A program made the position numbers and the translations under genes. Shown here piece after piece: positions 21,830 to 33,536 of a stretch of DNA of 64,000 nucleotides (position 1 is the stretch's first letter; every line of letters begins with the position of its first letter). The DNA is from Candidatus Sumerlaeota bacterium. Its GTDB lineage: Bacteria; Sumerlaeota; Sumerlaeia; Sumerlaeales; Sumerlaeaceae. The stretch spans positions 1 through 64,000 of the forward strand of contig JAAZBM010000015.1 in the NCBI GenBank assembly GCA_012513815.1, read 5' to 3'. The notes beneath the pieces were generated by a model. It did not search any database. It was given only the letters and a program-made list of their open reading frames with translations, and had not been told where the DNA came from.

Positions 21830-24800
21830 CTACATTTCTTTGTCGGAACTCGGAGCATAGTCATAGTAGTAATTGTCGGTTTCATCGGTTTCGGGTACCA
21901 GATCAGTCACATCGGTGATGATACCAAGCAACTGCCCATCCGGGATAGCGCCTTGGCTCTCGATGTGGATCGCCACCTCGGCGCCTGCCGCAAGCGATGT
22001 CACATTCTGACCACCGGCAATCGCTGTGTTACGATAGAAGAATCCGGTCTTTTTCTGGAAACTTCCCGTCCAAACTTCGGTCCAGAACGAGTTGCAGGCG
22101 GTTGTACCGGCGTTCTTAACGCGACCGGTAACAATAACCTTCGACTCCGAACGTGTCACCGTCGGGCGCTCTTTCCAGACAAGGTTTACCTTGCCGCTGT
22201 CGGGAGTAATGAGCGACAAACGACCTGTAGCATAGGCCAAGCGATTGTCGAGCGGGCGCTCGTCGCCGGGATTCGCGCTCACAGCTGTACGGTTCACGAC
22301 GACAACCGGCGTATACATACCATCGCCAACGGAGTTGATAACCTTCTTGACGACATATGTCTTCTGTTCACCAACCGCGGGACCGTCTACCACTTCGCTC
22401 TTGGTCAGCGTGATGCCGGAACGGATAAAGTCGATGCCACCTGTCTGCGAGCCAAACAGTTCAAGCCAGATTTTGCCGCAATCCTTTGTGCCCTGATTCA
22501 GCACACTCACCGTCCAAGTCAGTGTCTGACCCGGCTGCACCTGATTCGGCGCGAGACTTTTGCTATCGATGCTCAGCGACTTGACCACTAAATCAACGCC
22601 GCTCTTTTTACCCGGAGGCAGAATCGCCGGTTTGTAAAGCATCTGACAATTATTGGTCTCGTTTGTCTCGGGCACAACGTCTGTGCTGTCAACAATGCAT
22701 GCCAACGCGCGCTTGTCCACACCGGCGGGCACACGTCCCGAAAGGGTGAATTCCTGCGTTCCGCCGGATGCCAGATTCATCACGACATAACCGCCGCCAA
22801 TGGTACCTTGCGGCATCAGTGTTCCCTCGGCGGTCAACGTCCCGTAGAAAACCTCGACCCAGAATTTGCCCGAAGCGCCCGGACCGACATTCTTAACTGT
22901 CCCGGTCACATCAACCCAAGTGTTATCCGTCGCCTTGACCGCGAAGTTGACATCCCCCGAAATCTGCAAATCGCAGACACCGGTTTTCGGGTTACGAACA
23001 TGGATGCGCTTGTAAGGCAGCGGCGCCCAGTTGTTCAGATAGTTGTAAATTTCCTTCAACGCGCCCGGCGATGTCTGACGATTCACCGACGGAATCAGCG
23101 TGTAAACGCCATCCGGCACTGTGTTCAAGCGCAACGTCCCGGGATTCAGAATCGTCTGCGTCTTCGCCGCAAGTCCTGTTGTGTGCCTGTAGGAGTTCGT
23201 GATTGTTCCGCCAAAACGCACTTGATCAAAGCCGCCTGTTTTGCTTGCGAATAACTCGCACCAGAAAGGTTCGGTAACCAACTCGGAGCTCTTCACGCCC
23301 CACGCAAAATCAACATACGCGCCCGGCGCAATCGTCGAGCTTACGCCCTTGGTGAAGTCCGCAACTTTCAGTTCAATGTCAAACGGCGTAGGCGTCGCTG
23401 ACCACATATCATTCATCATACCAAAGTCGAGATTTCGGTCGTAGCCCTCGCCGCCAAACAGCCAAAGCCAACCTTCGCCATCAACCCAACCCTGAGCATA
23501 GCCACGGCCACCCGGGGTGTCGCCGACATAAGCCTTGCCAACCTCGCCATAAAGACCACGAGAATCCTTTTTCAGGCTTCCGGCCCAGTAGGCCCACTTA
23601 TCCTTGGAGCTGTCATAGCACCACAAATCATTCAGCCAACCCTGATTGCCTTCGACATCGGCGCCATAACCACCAAGCACCCAGAAACGACCATCAAGCG
23701 CCTGCCAGCCTGTGCTGCCCGAACGCGAACCGGGCATTCCTGTCGATGTGAAGACACCGGCCGTGGCCTTGACTGTCGGAACATTACCAACATTGCGACC
23801 ACTCACCCATGTCCAGTTGCCACTTGTGGGGCTATACATCCACAAATCGCACAAATCAACACCACCATCCTGCGCGCTCTGCGAACCGGTGCTGTCATAA
23901 CCATAACCGCCATACAGCCACAGATTCCCTTCATCGTCAACCCAGCCACAGCTATCGACACGTGCGCCCGGGCAAGATGACGACGATGCGACACCCTTTG
24001 TGCCATAAACACCACCGACATTCGCCGACGAAGAACCACTCACCCATGTCCACATTGCGGTCTGAGGATCAAAAACCCACAAATCGTTGCCTTTGTCTAC
24101 ACGGGGATTTTTCTCATTCAGTTGACCGCCGAACAGCCACAAACGCCCATCAGCTGTCACCCAACTCTGGCCACGCATACGGCCACCGGGGTTATTGCTC
24201 GCCTCAGCCTTGCCCTTGCGTCCATAGACTGCGGCTTCATTCAATCCACGTGTTCCCTTCCTCAGCGTCCATTCGCAGGTCTCACTGTTCATCCGCCACA
24301 AATCGCTCGCGAAACCGGCGGTGCCGCCGATGTAGTGCGAGTAACCACCATAAAGCCACAAACCGCCATCTGGCGTTGACCAGCAGAACTGACCAAAACG
24401 ACCGCCGGGATATCTGTTGGAGAAAGCGGGAGAAATCAAATCTGAACCACCAACCCAAATCCAGTCGTAAGTATCGGGGTCAAACCACCACAAATCGCCC
24501 AAGATGCCGCTGTCGCCGTTACCATCGAAACCGTAACCACCATACATCCACATCTTGCCATCGGGCGTCACCCAGTTCGCGCCAAACTCGCGCGACCCCG
24601 GCCAACCACCGCTCGCCTCGCCAAAGTTGCCATAGTAACCGCCCGGATTCTGCATCAGAACGCCATCAATCCAAGCCCACTTATGGGACACAGGATTGAA
24701 TGCCCACTGGTCACTCAGGCTGACATTACGCATACGCGCGTCAACGCCATATCCGCCAAAAATACGCATCAGGCCATTGTTGTCTTTGCAGAACGCCACG

Positions 24801-26167
24801 GAGCCACGGCCACCCGGAGTGAAGTCCGCGCCATACTCGCCACTACCACCGGCATAAGAGCTATAGTCGATGCCATCGTCGCCGTTGTACCAAGTCCAGT
24901 TGCCGCTCGTCACATCATAGTTCCAAACATCATTGAGCCAGCCCTTGACCTTAGGCTCTTTGCCAAAGCCCGAGCCGCCAAACAGCCACAAACTCTTCTT
25001 GTCCGCGCTAATCCATCCCGCGCCATTCGAGCGGCCACCCGGCCAATTCTCGAAAGCGCTAACGCCCTTCGTGCCAAAATTGCCCGGAGCGCCATTCGTC
25101 GTGTCATATGTGACCGAGCCACCAATGCAACCCCAATGGAGCGACTCGTAAACATCAAAGCACCAGAGGTCGTTCAGCGAACCGAAATTACCATTGCAAT
25201 CATAACCTTCACCACCAAAAACCCACAGCCAACCATCGGCGCTTTTCCAAGCCGTCATGCTGCGGCGGGCACCCGGAGTGTTGCTCGCTGCCGTTTTGCC
25301 CAATTCCTGCACCGAACCACGAGCACGAACACTGTCGGAGCCATGTGCCCACGCCCACATACCGGTATTCAAATTATAGCACCACAAATCATTCAGGACA
25401 TCGGCGTTGCCGTTTTTATCAAGACCATCACCGCCGAAAAGCCAAACCTCGTTTTCCTCGGGAACATACCAAGTGACACCGTTGTAGCGAGCTCCGGGCC
25501 AGTTTGATATGTCATATTTATACTTTGTCCCATAGATGCCCTTCGCACCGCAATAGGTATAACCATCGATGAAAGTCCAAACAAATGTCGAACGGTTATA
25601 GGCCCAAATATCATTCATGTCGCCCCAATAGCCTTCTTCGTCGACGCCCTTGCCGCCAAAGAACCAAAGTATGCCATTGCTGTCTGTCCATGTCATACTA
25701 TTGGAGTGACCACCGGGGAAATGGGGACGAGGAATCGGGTCGCCATGCTCATCAACTTCGTCACGATAAATGCCCGGCTCATCGCACAGGTAAGAGCCAT
25801 CCTCCCATGTCCAGTTTCCTGTCGATATATTATAGCTCCAAACATCGCACAGATAACCAAGGTCACCATTGGCATCATAGCCAAAGCCGCCCATCATCCA
25901 CATCTTGCCATCATTGGTATCCCAACAAAGTGCCCCATCACGGACACCGGGGAAATTGTTCGGGTCAGGAACACCGATTTTCCCGTAAACACCGGGAGTG
26001 TACAGCGTATCGAAACCGCCCTCCCATTGCCACAACTGGTCAACGGCAGCATCCTCCGCCGCGACAGCAACACTTGGTACTAAACTCAAGAGCGTGACTG
26101 CACCGACGAATAGAAAATGTGCCAAGTGGCAGACACTTGTGCTTATTTTCATGGGGAAATACCTCAC
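21830..26167 (-). CDS. Secreted 1445-aa protein: 12 kelch-like repeat units followed by CARDB-like domains
   Basis: Repeated YGTKG....PGxR....W....LWLFGGxGYD..G..LNDLW.Y...T..WTW units; C-terminal VTGTVKNVGPGASGKFWVEVF and VTGRVKNAGTTACNSFWTEVW. Confidence 0.88.
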   Translation of the reverse strand: MRYFPMKISTSVCHLAHFLFVGAVTLLSLVPSVAVAAEDAAVDQLWQWEGGFDTLYTPGVYGKIGVPDPNNFPGVRDGALCWDTNDGKMWMMGGFGYDANGDLGYLCDVWSYNISTGNWTWEDGSYLCDEPGIYRDEVDEHGDPIPRPHFPGGHSNSMTWTDSNGILWFFGGKGVDEEGYWGDMNDIWAYNRSTFVWTFIDGYTYCGAKGIYGTKYKYDISNWPGARYNGVTWYVPEENEVWLFGGDGLDKNGNADVLNDLWCYNLNTGMWAWAHGSDSVRARGSVQELGKTAASNTPGARRSMTAWKSADGWLWVFGGEGYDCNGNFGSLNDLWCFDVYESLHWGCIGGSVTYDTTNGAPGNFGTKGVSAFENWPGGRSNGAGWISADKKSLWLFGGSGFGKEPKVKGWLNDVWNYDVTSGNWTWYNGDDGIDYSSYAGGSGEYGADFTPGGRGSVAFCKDNNGLMRIFGGYGVDARMRNVSLSDQWAFNPVSHKWAWIDGVLMQNPGGYYGNFGEASGGWPGSREFGANWVTPDGKMWMYGGYGFDGNGDSGILGDLWWFDPDTYDWIWVGGSDLISPAFSNRYPGGRFGQFCWSTPDGGLWLYGGYSHYIGGTAGFASDLWRMNSETCEWTLRKGTRGLNEAAVYGRKGKAEASNNPGGRMRGQSWVTADGRLWLFGGQLNEKNPRVDKGNDLWVFDPQTAMWTWVSGSSSANVGGVYGTKGVASSSSCPGARVDSCGWVDDEGNLWLYGGYGYDSTGSQSAQDGGVDLCDLWMYSPTSGNWTWVSGRNVGNVPTVKATAGVFTSTGMPGSRSGSTGWQALDGRFWVLGGYGADVEGNQGWLNDLWCYDSSKDKWAYWAGSLKKDSRGLYGEVGKAYVGDTPGGRGYAQGWVDGEGWLWLFGGEGYDRNLDFGMMNDMWSATPTPFDIELKVADFTKGVSSTIAPGAYVDFAWGVKSSELVTEPFWCELFASKTGGFDQVRFGGTITNSYRHTTGLAAKTQTILNPGTLRLNTVPDGVYTLIPSVNRQTSPGALKEIYNYLNNWAPLPYKRIHVRNPKTGVCDLQISGDVNFAVKATDNTWVDVTGTVKNVGPGASGKFWVEVFYGTLTAEGTLMPQGTIGGGYVVMNLASGGTQEFTLSGRVPAGVDKRALACIVDSTDVVPETNETNNCQMLYKPAILPPGKKSGVDLVVKSLSIDSKSLAPNQVQPGQTLTWTVSVLNQGTKDCGKIWLELFGSQTGGIDFIRSGITLTKSEVVDGPAVGEQKTYVVKKVINSVGDGMYTPVVVVNRTAVSANPGDERPLDNRLAYATGRLSLITPDSGKVNLVWKERPTVTRSESKVIVTGRVKNAGTTACNSFWTEVWTGSFQKKTGFFYRNTAIAGGQNVTSLAAGAEVAIHIESQGAIPDGQLLGIITDVTDLVPETDETDNYYYDYAPSSDKEM
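23400..26040 (-). repeat. Region encoding about 12 degenerate kelch-like units (each about 70 codons)
   Basis: Periodic FGGxGYDxxG...LNDLW...WTW motifs read from the translation. Confidence 0.8.
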
Positions 26168-27449: not shown

Positions 27450-28499
27450 TTATTCTTGTGACGACGAGCCGTCAAGACGCTTCTCAAGCTCTTCGATTCG
27501 GCGACGCAACGCCAACATTTCCTTGCGCATCTCAGGCAGCTTGTTTTGAGCTATCTTAATGCGCAGTTCCTGTGTAACAGGAACTGCCGGTGTCCCTAGC
27601 ACATGCTCGCCCGCCGGAACCTCGCGCATCACGTTTGACCCGGCCATCACAATCGCGCCATCGTTGATGGTCACATGGTCGGCGATGCCAACTTTAGCCG
27701 CGAGAATAACCCAGTTCCCGAGCTTGCAGGAACCGGCAACGCCCGTTTGCGAAACAATCACGCAATCGTTGCCGATAACGCAATTATGTCCAACCTGAAC
27801 AAGGTTGTCAATCTTGGTGCGAGCGCCAATCCGTGTCTCCGTAAAGCCCGCGCGGTCGACGCACGAACAAGAACCGATTTCGCAATCATCCTCGATGACA
27901 ACACAACCAACTTGCGGAATCTTGATGCGACCAACACTCACGATTTCGTACTTGAAACCATCGCTCCCGATTACTGAACCCGCATGAATAATCACCCGAT
28001 TGCCAATACGTGTGTTGGCCTCGATGACCACGTTGCTCTCGAACAAGCAATCGTCGCCAATGGACACATTCGGACCGATGACAACTCCCGGATACAGATA
28101 GCATCCCGCTCCGAGGACACTGCCGGGGCCAATCACGACATTCGGACCAACCGTTACGTTGGCGCCAAGCACGGCGCTCTCGTGAATGACGGCACTCGGA
28201 TGAATCCCGTGAAACCATTGAACGGCCGAAATCGGATGCAACTTGCTAAGCAAACCTGCCATCGCCAGCCATGGGTCGGCGACCTCGACACAGGCGCGAC
28301 CGGGCAAAACATTTCCCTGCTTTACGATAAATGCACCGGCGGCGGAAGAAAGCGCGGCTGTATTGAGCTTTGGCGTCGTAACAACACAAACATCACACGA
28401 GCCGGCAACATCAAACGAAGTCGCGGCGTTGATTTCAAAATCTGTATCAAGATTCGAAACACGACCATTAACAACTTGGGCAAATTCACTTAATAACAT
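27450..28499 (-). CDS. lpxD: UDP-3-O-(3-hydroxyacyl)glucosamine N-acyltransferase
   Basis: N-terminal LpxD domain then hexapeptide repeats; HPSAVIHESAVLGANVTVGPNVVIGPGS, GSDGFKYE, LVQVGHNCVIGNDC. Confidence 0.92.
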   Translation of the reverse strand: MLLSEFAQVVNGRVSNLDTDFEINAATSFDVAGSCDVCVVTTPKLNTAALSSAAGAFIVKQGNVLPGRACVEVADPWLAMAGLLSKLHPISAVQWFHGIHPSAVIHESAVLGANVTVGPNVVIGPGSVLGAGCYLYPGVVIGPNVSIGDDCLFESNVVIEANTRIGNRVIIHAGSVIGSDGFKYEIVSVGRIKIPQVGCVVIEDDCEIGSCSCVDRAGFTETRIGARTKIDNLVQVGHNCVIGNDCVIVSQTGVAGSCKLGNWVILAAKVGIADHVTINDGAIVMAGSNVMREVPAGEHVLGTPAVPVTQELRIKIAQNKLPEMRKEMLALRRRIEELEKRLDGSSSQE

Positions 28500-28894: not shown

Positions 28895-29019
28895 CCGAAA
28901 ATCCGCCACACCACCAAGATGTGTCAGCCTTATCTATTACAAAATATCCGTTTCAAAACTTCAAATAAAACTGAACATTTTTGGCATTATCATTCATAAC
29001 ACCTCGAAAGGATGTCATT

Positions 29020-29649
29020 ATGTACAACACTAAACTTCTCTCCCCGTTCCTCACTATTGTCCTGTGTGCTTCCCTCTTTACCGCTTGCGACAAACCGCAG
29101 AAACCCGAAGACAATACGACTCCGGCGGTAAAACCAGCACCGGCTGAAGGTCTGACCACTGCGGAAAAACCGACCACGACCGAGAGTCTGGCCACGGCCG
29201 ATATCCCGATGACAGAAGATGAGGTCGCGCCGCCCCTTGAAGCGCAGGATATTTTCTCAGGAAAAAAGGTCACCCTCAAAGATTTCCAAGGGCAGGTTGT
29301 TTTTCTCGATTTTTGGACATCATGGTGTCCCCCATGCCAAGAACCGATGCGACACAACCAAAAGCTTATGACGAAGCATGCCGAAGACTGGAAGGGCAAG
29401 GCCGCCATCATCGGCGTCAGTCTGGATGACTTGGTGGGAACCATACAGAAGCATGTCTCGGACAAGAATCTCACCGCGCCTCTGCAACTCTGGGCAGAGG
29501 GCGGATGGAACAGCAAGTCCGCCCAAGACTACAAAGTCAGGGGCGTTCCGAGCGCGTTCCTTATCAACAAAAAAGGCAGCATCGTCTGGAGCGGACATCC
29601 GGCAACGATTGATGTCGAAAAGATGATTGCGGAAGAAATAAGCAAATAA
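29020..29649 (+). CDS. TlpA-like thioredoxin-fold lipoprotein
   Basis: Start at ATG 29020 (MYNTKLLSPFLTIVLCASLFTACDK, lipobox FTAC); LDFWTSWCPPCQEP active site; VRGVPSAFLINKKGSIVW. Confidence 0.85.
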   Translation: MYNTKLLSPFLTIVLCASLFTACDKPQKPEDNTTPAVKPAPAEGLTTAEKPTTTESLATADIPMTEDEVAPPLEAQDIFSGKKVTLKDFQGQVVFLDFWTSWCPPCQEPMRHNQKLMTKHAEDWKGKAAIIGVSLDDLVGTIQKHVSDKNLTAPLQLWAEGGWNSKSAQDYKVRGVPSAFLINKKGSIVWSGHPATIDVEKMIAEEISK

Positions 29650-29722: not shown

Positions 29723-31084
29723 TTACTTCATCAACTCGTCAATCTTTTCCTCGAGTGCTTTAGGTTCCAAATCACGAGCGATAACTTTGCCATCTTTGCC
29801 GATGATATATGTCGACGGAATCGCCAAAATACCATACGCGTCTGTCACATCGGAGGTGCACAGAAGATTCGGCCAAGTCATCTTTTCTTTCTCGACAAAA
29901 ACCTTCCAAGCCTTCTTGTCTTGGTCGCAACTCAGACCCAGAACAACCAGACCCTTGTCCTTATATTTCTCATACAGAGCCTTCACACCGGGAATCGACG
30001 CGCGGCAAGGACCACACCATGAAGCCCAGAAGTCCAGTAGGACAATCTTATCCTTGAACTGTGCAAGGCTGACACTGGTACCCTTGACGTCAAGAAGCTC
30101 AAATGCCATAGGCTCATCACCGGCCTTGAATCCGGCATTCTTCATCTTCATTGATTCAATCTGACGGTCCAAACGCTCGACAAACTTCTTCAACCGAGCA
30201 TTATACTTCGAATTCGGATACTTAAGGAAATAGGCATCAATCGCGTCGACAAGCTCAACGGCCGAAGCATAAGCGGATTCTTCCGTTTTAGAAGCTGTTG
30301 TCGCCTTATCAACATACGAACCAAGAGCCGCAATCAACGCCAGTGCATCCATACTGCGACTTGTCAATTCCTCGGCGTTGAGAACCTCGGCATTCGTCAA
30401 CTCCATCTTCAGATTCACGAACTGCGCCGCGCCGGCACCAAGCACCGTCACCGCAAGTCCCTCATCGGAAGCGTAACTCTGCGGAAGTCCATCTTTCTCT
30501 AGTGACAGCAGATAATCTGATTTGATGAGCTTGGCATTGGAGCTGATTCCGCTCAGCTGCACAGCCTGATCCGGCGACGCCGAATACTTGATGCGCATGC
30601 CGTCCTCATTCAAATTGGCGCGAACATCCAGAACGCCAAGATCGGACTTCAGCGAAAGTAGACCATCGGCCTTGGGAACGGGAAGGAAGGGTTTGAGCAA
30701 ATAGCCTTCGCCCTTGACAAGTTCGCCGTTTGGCTTCATGTAGTTAACATTCGGAATAATGCTCGCCAAAGTCTCATTATCTGCAGAAGATTCCGGAGTA
30801 TACTCCGAAAGAATTTTGTAACCTGTTGACGAACTCTCTGCGTCATCAAGAACATAAATAATAAGTTTGGACTTGTTGTCAAAGTCGCGAGGTGTCGTGC
30901 CAAAAACAACGGTCTGCTTGTTGGTGACGTCGTATGTAAGACACTGCCCTTTTTTTAATTGGTAAGCATCTGACAGCGTTGCGCGCTCCAAAGCATCCTC
31001 ACCTGTAGCAAGAATAGGGAATGCAAACAAAAAACAAAATGCTAAAACTTGAAAACTATAAGCGTAACTTTTTATTTGAGACAT
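29723..31084 (-). CDS. Exported TlpA-family thiol-disulfide reductase with long N-terminal domain of unknown function
   Basis: Signal peptide; C-terminal KIVLLDFWASWCGPCRASIPGVKALYEKYKDKGLVVLGLSCD, ILAIPSTYIIGKDGKV. Confidence 0.85.
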   Translation of the reverse strand: MSQIKSYAYSFQVLAFCFLFAFPILATGEDALERATLSDAYQLKKGQCLTYDVTNKQTVVFGTTPRDFDNKSKLIIYVLDDAESSSTGYKILSEYTPESSADNETLASIIPNVNYMKPNGELVKGEGYLLKPFLPVPKADGLLSLKSDLGVLDVRANLNEDGMRIKYSASPDQAVQLSGISSNAKLIKSDYLLSLEKDGLPQSYASDEGLAVTVLGAGAAQFVNLKMELTNAEVLNAEELTSRSMDALALIAALGSYVDKATTASKTEESAYASAVELVDAIDAYFLKYPNSKYNARLKKFVERLDRQIESMKMKNAGFKAGDEPMAFELLDVKGTSVSLAQFKDKIVLLDFWASWCGPCRASIPGVKALYEKYKDKGLVVLGLSCDQDKKAWKVFVEKEKMTWPNLLCTSDVTDAYGILAIPSTYIIGKDGKVIARDLEPKALEEKIDELMK

Positions 31085-31253
31085 AGATGACTCCCTTTTT
31101 CAGGATATTATTTGTTTACAATTCATTTTAGCTTCTAATAGACGATTAAGTAACAATAGCGAACTAAATAGCACCCTCAGCGAAACCTTTTCGCCTTTGC
31201 TCTGTAGAATTATTTACACATTAACATTCCCTCAAATAGGAGGCATACAGACT

Positions 31254-32027
31254 TTGGAACAAGTATCACTACAACCTATGAATGCAATCATCATCGGGGC
31301 GTCATCCGGTATCGGTGCGGCGACGGCTGAACAGCTCGCCATCAGAGGATACAGAGTCGCTCTCCTTGCCAGAAGAGAACAGGCGCTCAAGGATCTCGCG
31401 CAAATCATCAATCAACGATGCAGATGCGAAGACAGAGCCATTGTCTATCAGCATGATGTTACAAAGTATGATGAAATCCCGGCGCTTTTTGACAAAATCG
31501 TCAATGATATGGGAGGCATTGGGCTTGTCTTGTATTGTTCCGGAATCATGTCGGATGTGACTGTCGAAGAATTTGACTTTACAAAAGATAAAGACATGAT
31601 CGATGTCAACCTTCTTGGAATGATGGCTTGGGTCAATCAGGCCGCGGATCTCTTCCACAGACTTAAGGGGGGCGTCATCGCGGCAATCGCAAGCGTCGCC
31701 GGAGACAGAGGCAGACTCGGGCAACCCGGCTATAACACCAGCAAGGGAGCGCAGGCAATTTTCCTCGAAAGTATGAGAAACAGATTGTACAAAGACGGAG
31801 TCAGAGTCATCACCTTCAAGCCAGGACCTGTCGACACGCCGCTCATTACGGTGTGCAAAACGAAAACCATGATGATTACGGCTGAAGCCGCCGCAAACAG
31901 AATCGTCAAATTTATCACAAAACCGAATTTCAACGGAACTGTCTATGTGCCATGGCAATGGAGTCTGATTATGAAAACAATCATACACATCCCGGGATGT
32001 ATTTTCCGTCGGTTAGGAATATACTAA
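31254..32027 (+). CDS. DprE2-like short-chain dehydrogenase/reductase
   Basis: IIIGASSGIGAATAEQL Rossmann motif, YNTSKGAQ catalytic YxxxK; C-terminus IIHIPGCIFRRLGIY resembles DprE2 end; AGGAGG RBS before TTG at 31254 (start uncertain). Confidence 0.75.
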   Translation: MEQVSLQPMNAIIIGASSGIGAATAEQLAIRGYRVALLARREQALKDLAQIINQRCRCEDRAIVYQHDVTKYDEIPALFDKIVNDMGGIGLVLYCSGIMSDVTVEEFDFTKDKDMIDVNLLGMMAWVNQAADLFHRLKGGVIAAIASVAGDRGRLGQPGYNTSKGAQAIFLESMRNRLYKDGVRVITFKPGPVDTPLITVCKTKTMMITAEAAANRIVKFITKPNFNGTVYVPWQWSLIMKTIIHIPGCIFRRLGIY

Positions 32028-33472
32028 TGCACGACAATCTTACCAACACAAAGCCTGAATTGTCGCTCAAGAACATCCAACGCGTCGAAGGGTGGGGAAC
32101 CGCTGTCCATGCCTTTGCCCATGTGCTTTATCCGACAACCGTCGAGCAGGTGCAGGACGCCTTTGAACTTGCCAACAAACTCAACGCGAACATCGCGATG
32201 CGTGGCGGAGCGCAAAGTTACGGAGACGCCGCCATCATCAACAACGGTATCGTTCTCGATCTTTCGAAGATGAACAAGGTCATCTCATGGGATCCGCAAA
32301 CGGGCATTGCTGACCTCGAACCCGGTGTCACCATCGAGAATCTCTGGCACACCATCATCGGCGATGGATACTGGCCTCCCGTCGTAAGCGGAACAATGTT
32401 CACCACCATGGGCGGATGTGCCTCGATGAACATCCACGGAAAGAACAATTTTAAAGCAGGAACGTTCGGAGAGCACATCGACGAATTCGACATTGTTCTC
32501 CCGGACGGAACACTCAAGACTGTGACCAAAAGCCTCGACGACGACCTTTATCTCTCCGCAATCGGAGGATTCGGAATGATTGGCGCAATTGTCAGAATCC
32601 GAATGAAGATGAAGAAAGTTTTCTCCGGACAACTCAGAGTCGAAGCATTCAACACGCCGAATATCCAAGCAATGATTGAATCATTCGAGGATATGTACAA
32701 AACATCCGATTATATGGTCGGATGGATCGACACCATTTGTGGTGGCAACGGAAGAGGGCGCAATGTCGTTCACAGAGCGAAGTATCTCAAAGAAAACGAA
32801 GACCCCGACCCACGCTACCTCATGAACATTCATGCGCAGGGACTGCCGCCGAACATCATGGGCATATTCCCCAAACGTATGGTACACTTCCTGTTGGCGC
32901 CTTTCTGCAACAAGTACGGAATGCGGCTCATCAATGCGGCGAAGTATTACTCCAGCCTGATGACCCCTCAGCATATCATCTATCTGCAGACGCACGGCGC
33001 CTTCAACTTCCTACTCGACTATGTGCCGGACTGGAAACTTGCCTACGGAAAAGGCGGACTCATTCAGTTCCAGACGTTTATCCCCAAGGAAAACGCGGCA
33101 AAAACGCACACGGAAATCCTCAAGAGAGCGCAACAGGCAGGGATGCCGCCATTCCTCGGTGTTTTCAAGAAACACAAACCGGACCCGTTCCTCATGACAC
33201 ACAGCGTCGACGGATTCTCGATGGCTCTCGATTTTAAGGTCACCAAAAGAAACCGAGAAAGACTCTGGAGACTCACGCACGACCTCACAGAACTTGCTCT
33301 CGACAATGGAGGCAAATTCTATTTCGCGAAGGACGCGACCATGCGTCAGGGAACACCGGAGCGATACATTCCCAAGGAAGACCTCGAACGGTTCAAAAAG
33401 GTCAAACACCTCTATGACCCCGACAATAGGCTCCAAACGGAACTCAGCAGACGAGTGTTTGGCACTTTCTAA
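32027..33472 (+). CDS. DprE1-like FAD-binding oxidoreductase (decaprenylphosphoryl-ribose 2'-oxidase family)
   Basis: ATG overlaps SDR stop (TAATG); RGGAQSYGDAA, GCASMNIHGKNNFKAGTFGEHI, GGFGMIGAI, FYFAKDATM blocks. Confidence 0.82.
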   Translation: MHDNLTNTKPELSLKNIQRVEGWGTAVHAFAHVLYPTTVEQVQDAFELANKLNANIAMRGGAQSYGDAAIINNGIVLDLSKMNKVISWDPQTGIADLEPGVTIENLWHTIIGDGYWPPVVSGTMFTTMGGCASMNIHGKNNFKAGTFGEHIDEFDIVLPDGTLKTVTKSLDDDLYLSAIGGFGMIGAIVRIRMKMKKVFSGQLRVEAFNTPNIQAMIESFEDMYKTSDYMVGWIDTICGGNGRGRNVVHRAKYLKENEDPDPRYLMNIHAQGLPPNIMGIFPKRMVHFLLAPFCNKYGMRLINAAKYYSSLMTPQHIIYLQTHGAFNFLLDYVPDWKLAYGKGGLIQFQTFIPKENAAKTHTEILKRAQQAGMPPFLGVFKKHKPDPFLMTHSVDGFSMALDFKVTKRNRERLWRLTHDLTELALDNGGKFYFAKDATMRQGTPERYIPKEDLERFKKVKHLYDPDNRLQTELSRRVFGTF

Positions 33473-33485
33473 ACGCGCAATAATC

Positions 33486-33524
33486 AAAGCGGGCACCCTG
33501 ACGAAGGATGCCCGCTTTCCTTTT
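33486..33524 (+). terminator. Rho-independent terminator downstream of the DprE1-like gene
   Basis: aaagcgggca(33486-33495)/tgcccgcttt(33509-33518) followed by ccttttat. Confidence 0.8.
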
Positions 33525-33536
33525 ATCTATCTCGCA

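Follow-up and report, generated by a model that had tools for sequence, protein, structure and literature searches.

The window analysed here, a stretch of 64,000 nucleotides from contig 11 (C11) of a Candidatus Sumerlaeota MAG (G000; assembly 1.88 Mb, 66% complete), carries at 31254-33472 on the forward strand a pair of genes encoding an SDR and an FAD oxidase. A Shine-Dalgarno-like AGGAGG (31238-31243) can be read directly ten bases 5' of the TTG that opens the first gene, a predicted DprE2-like keto-reductase of the SDR type at 31254-32027 (TTG at 31254, stop TAA at 32025-32027), whose conserved domain begins from an in-frame ATG further downstream, at 31278. The stop is part of a TAATG (32025-32029) that links the two genes, and the ATG at 32027 within it starts the second (32027-33472), which encodes a DprE1-like FAD oxidase of 481 residues belonging to a group of relatives referred to below as clade A. 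By alignment, an Ala codon at 33224-33226 occupies the mycobacterial Cys387 position, the benzothiazinone site. A terminator-like hairpin (AAAGCGGGCA/TGCCCGCTTT) with a T-rich tail, again read directly, follows 3' of the pair at 33486-33525; all of these features lie on the forward strand. An earlier note on this DNA had reported the SDR and FAD genes as joined by the TAATG overlap, and both ORFs, checked on the sequence, are where it placed them.

Just 5' of the pair, two adjacent genes on opposite strands (28981-29649, forward; 29723-31084, reverse) encode AhpC-TSA/thioredoxin-type proteins. The reverse strand also carries an LpxD-like hexapeptide acyltransferase (27450-28499; recognised by eye and from its Hexapep domain), which would fit a Gram-negative envelope with lipid A, and a 1445-residue repeat protein of the Kelch/galactose-oxidase type that has a CARDB domain and probably a signal sequence (21830-26167). 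Twelve PMT_2 GT-C glycosyltransferase genes score over the cut-off in the genome as assembled, indicating a glycan-rich envelope. Two broader settings for the pair were considered and rejected: a larger conserved operon, since besides DPPR synthase the pair's neighbours are only lineage-specific, and a mobile origin, since the plasmids and phages searched gave canonical DprE1 (~28% identity) and unrelated FAD oxidases and no clade-A member. The nearest relatives of the FAD protein, among the matches listed, come from Candidatus Sumerlaeaceae (57-58% identity), which bears out the earlier description of the host as probably non-actinobacterial.

Kinship with DprE1 and DprE2

DprE1 ranks among the foremost drug targets in tuberculosis; with DprE2 it produces the arabinose building block for the cell wall of the tuberculosis bacterium. 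The usual context of polyprenyl-P-arabinose chemistry is the Corynebacterineae together with a few Gram-negative loci. For the window pair, Pfam returns only generic domains (FAD_binding_4 and adh_short). The top NCBIfam model for the FAD protein is DprE1 (266 bits, E = 6e-79, over 460 residues), and the second is sugar lactone oxidase at 62 bits. The DprE1 score is below the curated equivalog cut-off of 500 bits, as is that of a Rhizobium protein from a textbook-like UbiA-GtrA-DprE1-DprE2 cluster (405 bits). A sequence search of the PDB aligned the FAD protein with residues 42-502 of a 506-residue stretch of M. smegmatis DprE1 at E = 9.5e-46, the next molecule after DprE1 coming at 6e-10, and the top 49 PDB matches found by Foldseek for its AlphaFold2 model (pLDDT 90.7) are all DprE1. 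An ALO-domain oxidase was rejected as a candidate, the genome search having given no ALO domain match. In the tree, clade A and canonical DprE1 together split at 95/94 from the four other VAO-type proteins compared.

The residues agree with this grouping. Y60, H132, K134, W230, Q334, Q336, K367 and K418 of the mycobacterial enzyme are kept in the window protein and, together with G117, V365 and Y415 (mycobacterial numbering), are invariant across it, 80 relatives and 10 canonical DprE1s, 91 sequences in all; in the alignment they are mostly absent from the four other VAO-type oxidases. The earlier assignment of the Tyr in SYGD to Y60, the His in IHGKN to H132 and the Lys in FYFAKD to K418 proves correct by this alignment. 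So does the placement of Ala at the benzothiazinone-target Cys387, but its standing as a special feature is lost, because Ala is the usual state outside mycobacteria in every sampled sequence: it is found in 81/81 clade-A sequences (among the matches listed) and in 9/9 non-mycobacterial canonical ones, with Cys only in the mycobacterial sequence. M. avium DprE1 has Ala at the same position and is naturally resistant (PMC3206020).

The SDR carries a GASSGIG nucleotide-binding motif, the Ser and a YxxxK. Its best model is PRK07102 (170 bits, of 267), and with the DprE2 model it scores 94 bits, below the curated equivalog cut-off of 250. PRK07102 is also the top model, above cut-off, for the SDRs of the canonical Rhizobium and Flammeovirgaceae clusters (361 and 317 bits), from which we conclude that this model covers non-actinobacterial DprE2. 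The C-terminal pattern with conserved Pro and Phe (IHIPGCIFRRLGIY in the window) is common to the canonical partners, in agreement with the DprE2-like C-terminus noticed earlier. The AlphaFold2 model (pLDDT 95.6) has an SDR fold; the fold search returned generic SDRs, with no DprE2 structure among the matches listed. In the SDR tree a grouping of the window SDR with canonical DprE2 stands at 98/96, against a thin outgroup of two SDRs from the window's own genome.

Clade A across bacterial phyla

A conserved-motif scan of GTDB genomes gave at least 80 relatives of the FAD protein, of which we took the best 80 (44-58% identity). Among the matches listed, the host phyla of clade A are Sumerlaeota, Planctomycetota, Chloroflexota, Armatimonadota, Ignavibacteriota/Bacteroidota, Myxococcota and others. 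Canonical DprE1 forms a group at 100/100 that includes Mycobacterium, Rhizobium, Rhodobacterales, Flammeovirgaceae and three Sumerlaeota genomes, and the window-type FAD proteins fall outside it; rooting within clade A is unreliable because the outgroup branches are very long. Mean identity is about 28-29% between the clades, versus 41% among the canonical sequences and 51% among those of clade A. Scores below the curated cut-offs and the tree position put the pair outside the canonical DprE1/E2 families and, as judged from sequence, it is a deep sister branch to them rather than a canonical ortholog. Of the earlier description as a DprE1/DprE2-like epimerase pair, the kinship stands, on profile, PDB, fold and residue evidence, but the mycobacterial type does not, the pair having the gene order and residues of its own deep sister clade. 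Clade A is apparently a distinct, widespread and uncharacterised branch, and our literature search found no paper on it.

Several features set clade A apart. Throughout the clade Asn replaces Asp before HGKN, His stands at F369 and Ser at N385, the substrate loop between W230 and D318 is ~12 residues longer, and Y314 is variable. The window protein shares the Asn, His, Ser and longer loop and, with its Ala at C387, differs at each of these points from mycobacterial DprE1, to which its identity is ~28%. The adjacent FAD oxidase and SDR genes, the fold and a DPPR synthase homologue in the genome are common to the window and the mycobacterial system; unlike in the latter, the order is SDR then FAD and the synthase lies on a separate contig. 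The earlier note had remarked that this order is opposite to that in Mycobacterium, and it is also opposite to that of all canonical pairs examined, which run FAD then SDR, clade A running SDR then FAD. The canonical non-actinobacterial clusters (Rhizobium, Cereibacter, Salipiger, Flammeovirgaceae), composed of UbiA(-HAD), GtrA, FAD and SDR genes, share with the window the Ala at C387, an SDR for which PRK07102 is the best model and a DPPR synthase in the genome; unlike the window, they join mycobacterial DprE1 at 100/100, place the FAD gene first and adjoin the synthase.

The two genes are rarely apart. Among the matches listed, an SDR adjoins the FAD gene in 75 of the 77 loci that had enough upstream sequence to be assessed, from at least six phyla, including one (L086) in which the SDR is on the opposite strand; in the other two (L075 and L143) no SDR was detected in the 4-8 kb upstream of the FAD gene. 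Pairing kept to this extent across phyla is not due to chance. None of the 50 clade-A genomes has a canonical copy as well. Within the Sumerlaeota class, 16 genomes have clade A and three (G009, G015, G018) have a canonical DprE1-type gene in its place, with no overlap, numbers too small for a test of exclusivity; the canonical genes of G015 and G018 are in FAD-then-SDR order. The absence of genomes with both types fits functional equivalence of clade A and canonical pairs. As clade A is widespread in non-actinobacterial phyla, lipid-linked arabinose-type sugars may be far commoner than is usually assumed. The members of clade A offer natural counterparts for comparing how substrates and inhibitors are selected, and SDR-first order, N-HGKN and H369 can serve as markers in searching for them.

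DPPR synthase and the likely substrate

The window's own genome encodes a UbiA-family DPPR synthase homologue on contig 6 (C6, 59424-60323), apart from the epimerase pair on C11. Its top models are decaprenyl-phosphate phosphoribosyltransferase, with scores just below the curated cut-offs (207/234 and 192.5/207 bits); it aligns over its full length with the mycobacterial enzyme 8j8j (E = 2e-36) and contains the motif NDxxDxxxDxxHPxKxFRP. MenA is the only other UbiA-family protein of the genome. The polyprenyl-phosphoribose pathway, on whose presence the earlier proposal depended, is thus represented in the genome by a DPPR synthase homologue.

Outside Sumerlaeota, the synthase is found in 48/50 clade-A genomes (47 at E <= 1e-20; among the matches listed), versus a background of 62/192 (32%) non-Sumerlaeota genomes without a DprE1-like gene (E <= 1e-20); the corresponding P of 2e-17, calculated with 48/50, is only indicative, because species do not count as independent samples and the two sets differ in their mix of phyla. 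Almost all genomes of the Sumerlaeota class have the synthase, whether they carry the pair or not, and co-occurrence within this class is therefore uninformative. Physical linkage points the same way as the enrichment: in 5/80 loci (among the matches listed) the synthase lies within ~4 kb of the pair, versus 0.2 expected in 50 genomes, and a sixth case of linkage (G241) has it ~2 kb away. In L111 and L128 it directly follows the pair and overlaps it. On the strength of the synthase in the window's own genome, the 48/50 versus 32% and the five linked loci, polyprenyl-phosphoribose is the likely substrate of the pair. A second, sister clade, distinct in gene order and pocket residues and associated with DPPR synthase across many environmental phyla, suggests a wide occurrence of lipid-linked pentofuranoses among uncultured bacteria.

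A HAD query taken from the rhizobial HAD-UbiA fusion found no HAD-type phosphatase adjoining the synthase, its sole match being in a canonical-pair genome (L069). In 11 Sumerlaeota genomes (L056-L066) the synthase, located away from the epimerase pair, sits between two genes that were named by eye, one ribosomal protein S16-like and one for a Gfo/Idh-like oxidoreductase.

The proposed reaction and its alternatives

We consider it probable that the pair acts as a polyprenyl-phosphoryl-ribose 2'-epimerase giving an arabinofuranose-type donor. The UbiA-type DPPR synthase homologue on C6 and a putative 5-phosphatase would supply polyprenyl-phosphoryl-beta-D-ribose. By homology, the FAD protein would oxidise polyprenyl-P-ribofuranose at C2' of the ribose. 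The resulting keto intermediate would be reduced by the NAD(P)H-dependent SDR, with inversion of stereochemistry, to a polyprenyl-P-D-arabinofuranose-type donor, from which a GT-C enzyme would transfer the sugar to an envelope glycan. The homology, the fold, the conserved catalytic residues, the gene pairing, and the presence of DPPR synthase and its association with the pair are observed; the redox roles are predicted by homology, and the C2' stereochemistry, the arabino product and the glycan acceptor are likewise predictions. Homologues of DprE1/E2 have been noted alongside Araf-containing glycans in the three-component pentofuranose systems of Gram-negative bacteria (PMC11127046). These systems resemble the one proposed here in having polyprenyl-P-ribose as the entry point and auxiliary epimerases, but their genes lie in one O-antigen locus (PMC11127046), whereas in the window's genome synthase and epimerase are unlinked.

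Candidates for the transfer step come from other clade-A loci. In three of the five with a linked synthase, from Ignavibacteriota/Bacteroidota (L078, 6670-9844; L108, 2541-5724; L122, 9348-12567), two multi-pass GT-C-like proteins, homologous across all three loci, are encoded between synthase and pair. A PMT_2 GT-C domain was recognised in one of the two (E = 2.9e-6 and 1.5e-6); the other gives, in L122, a weak match to the model for the mycobacterial terminal beta-arabinofuranosyltransferase (E = 9.5e-5). The latter protein, which is weakly AftB-like and has a DDVYIH motif, is a candidate new pentofuranosyltransferase; it has no match in those parts of the window's genome that were searched with it. 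None of the twelve PMT_2 GT-C genes there can be attributed to pentofuranosyl transfer from sequence, and, unlike in the mycobacterial system, no Emb/Aft arabinosyltransferase was identified for the window pair in this 66% complete MAG.

The lack of an assigned phosphatase, flippase or arabinosyltransferase in the window's genome and the scores below the DprE1 and DprE2 cut-offs speak against a 2'-epimerase, as do the clade-wide pocket changes (Asn, H369, S385, Y314 and the loop), which could mean another substrate or product. One broader conjecture, to which we give limited credence, is that clade A consists of anciently separate polyprenyl-phosphoryl-pentose epimerases, distributed over many non-actinobacterial phyla, that make a lipid-linked pentose instead of or besides D-arabinose, for undescribed envelope glycans. 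We find it unlikely that the pair epimerises polyprenyl-P-ribose to a different product, for example at 3' to yield a xylofuranose donor. Such a product would explain the fixed substrate-site changes (N before HGKN, H369, S385), and bacteria do make other pentofuranose epimers of polyprenyl-P-ribose, Xylf arising via the GalE-like ORF13 (PMC11127046); however, 3'-epimerisation as known so far relies on one GalE-like SDR and not on an FAD/SDR pair (PMC11127046), the catalytic residues are those of DprE1, and the AftB model finds a match, if a weak one, beside one clade-A locus. An oxidase-reductase pair acting on a non-ribose sugar, linked to polyprenyl phosphate or to a nucleotide, would accord with the low identity to canonical DprE1 and with the separation of C11 from C6 in the window's genome; the near-constant DPPR synthase of clade-A genomes and its proximity in five loci make this improbable. 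Against these readings we retain the 2'-epimerase as the probable function. An ordinary VAO-family sugar or alditol oxidase that happens to neighbour an unrelated SDR, as the generic Pfam domains and the generic matches in the SDR fold search might suggest, is highly improbable given the missing ALO domain, the 62 versus 266 bits for sugar-lactone oxidase and DprE1, the 95/94 node that joins the FAD protein to DprE1 versus four VAO-type proteins, and an SDR pairing kept across phyla.
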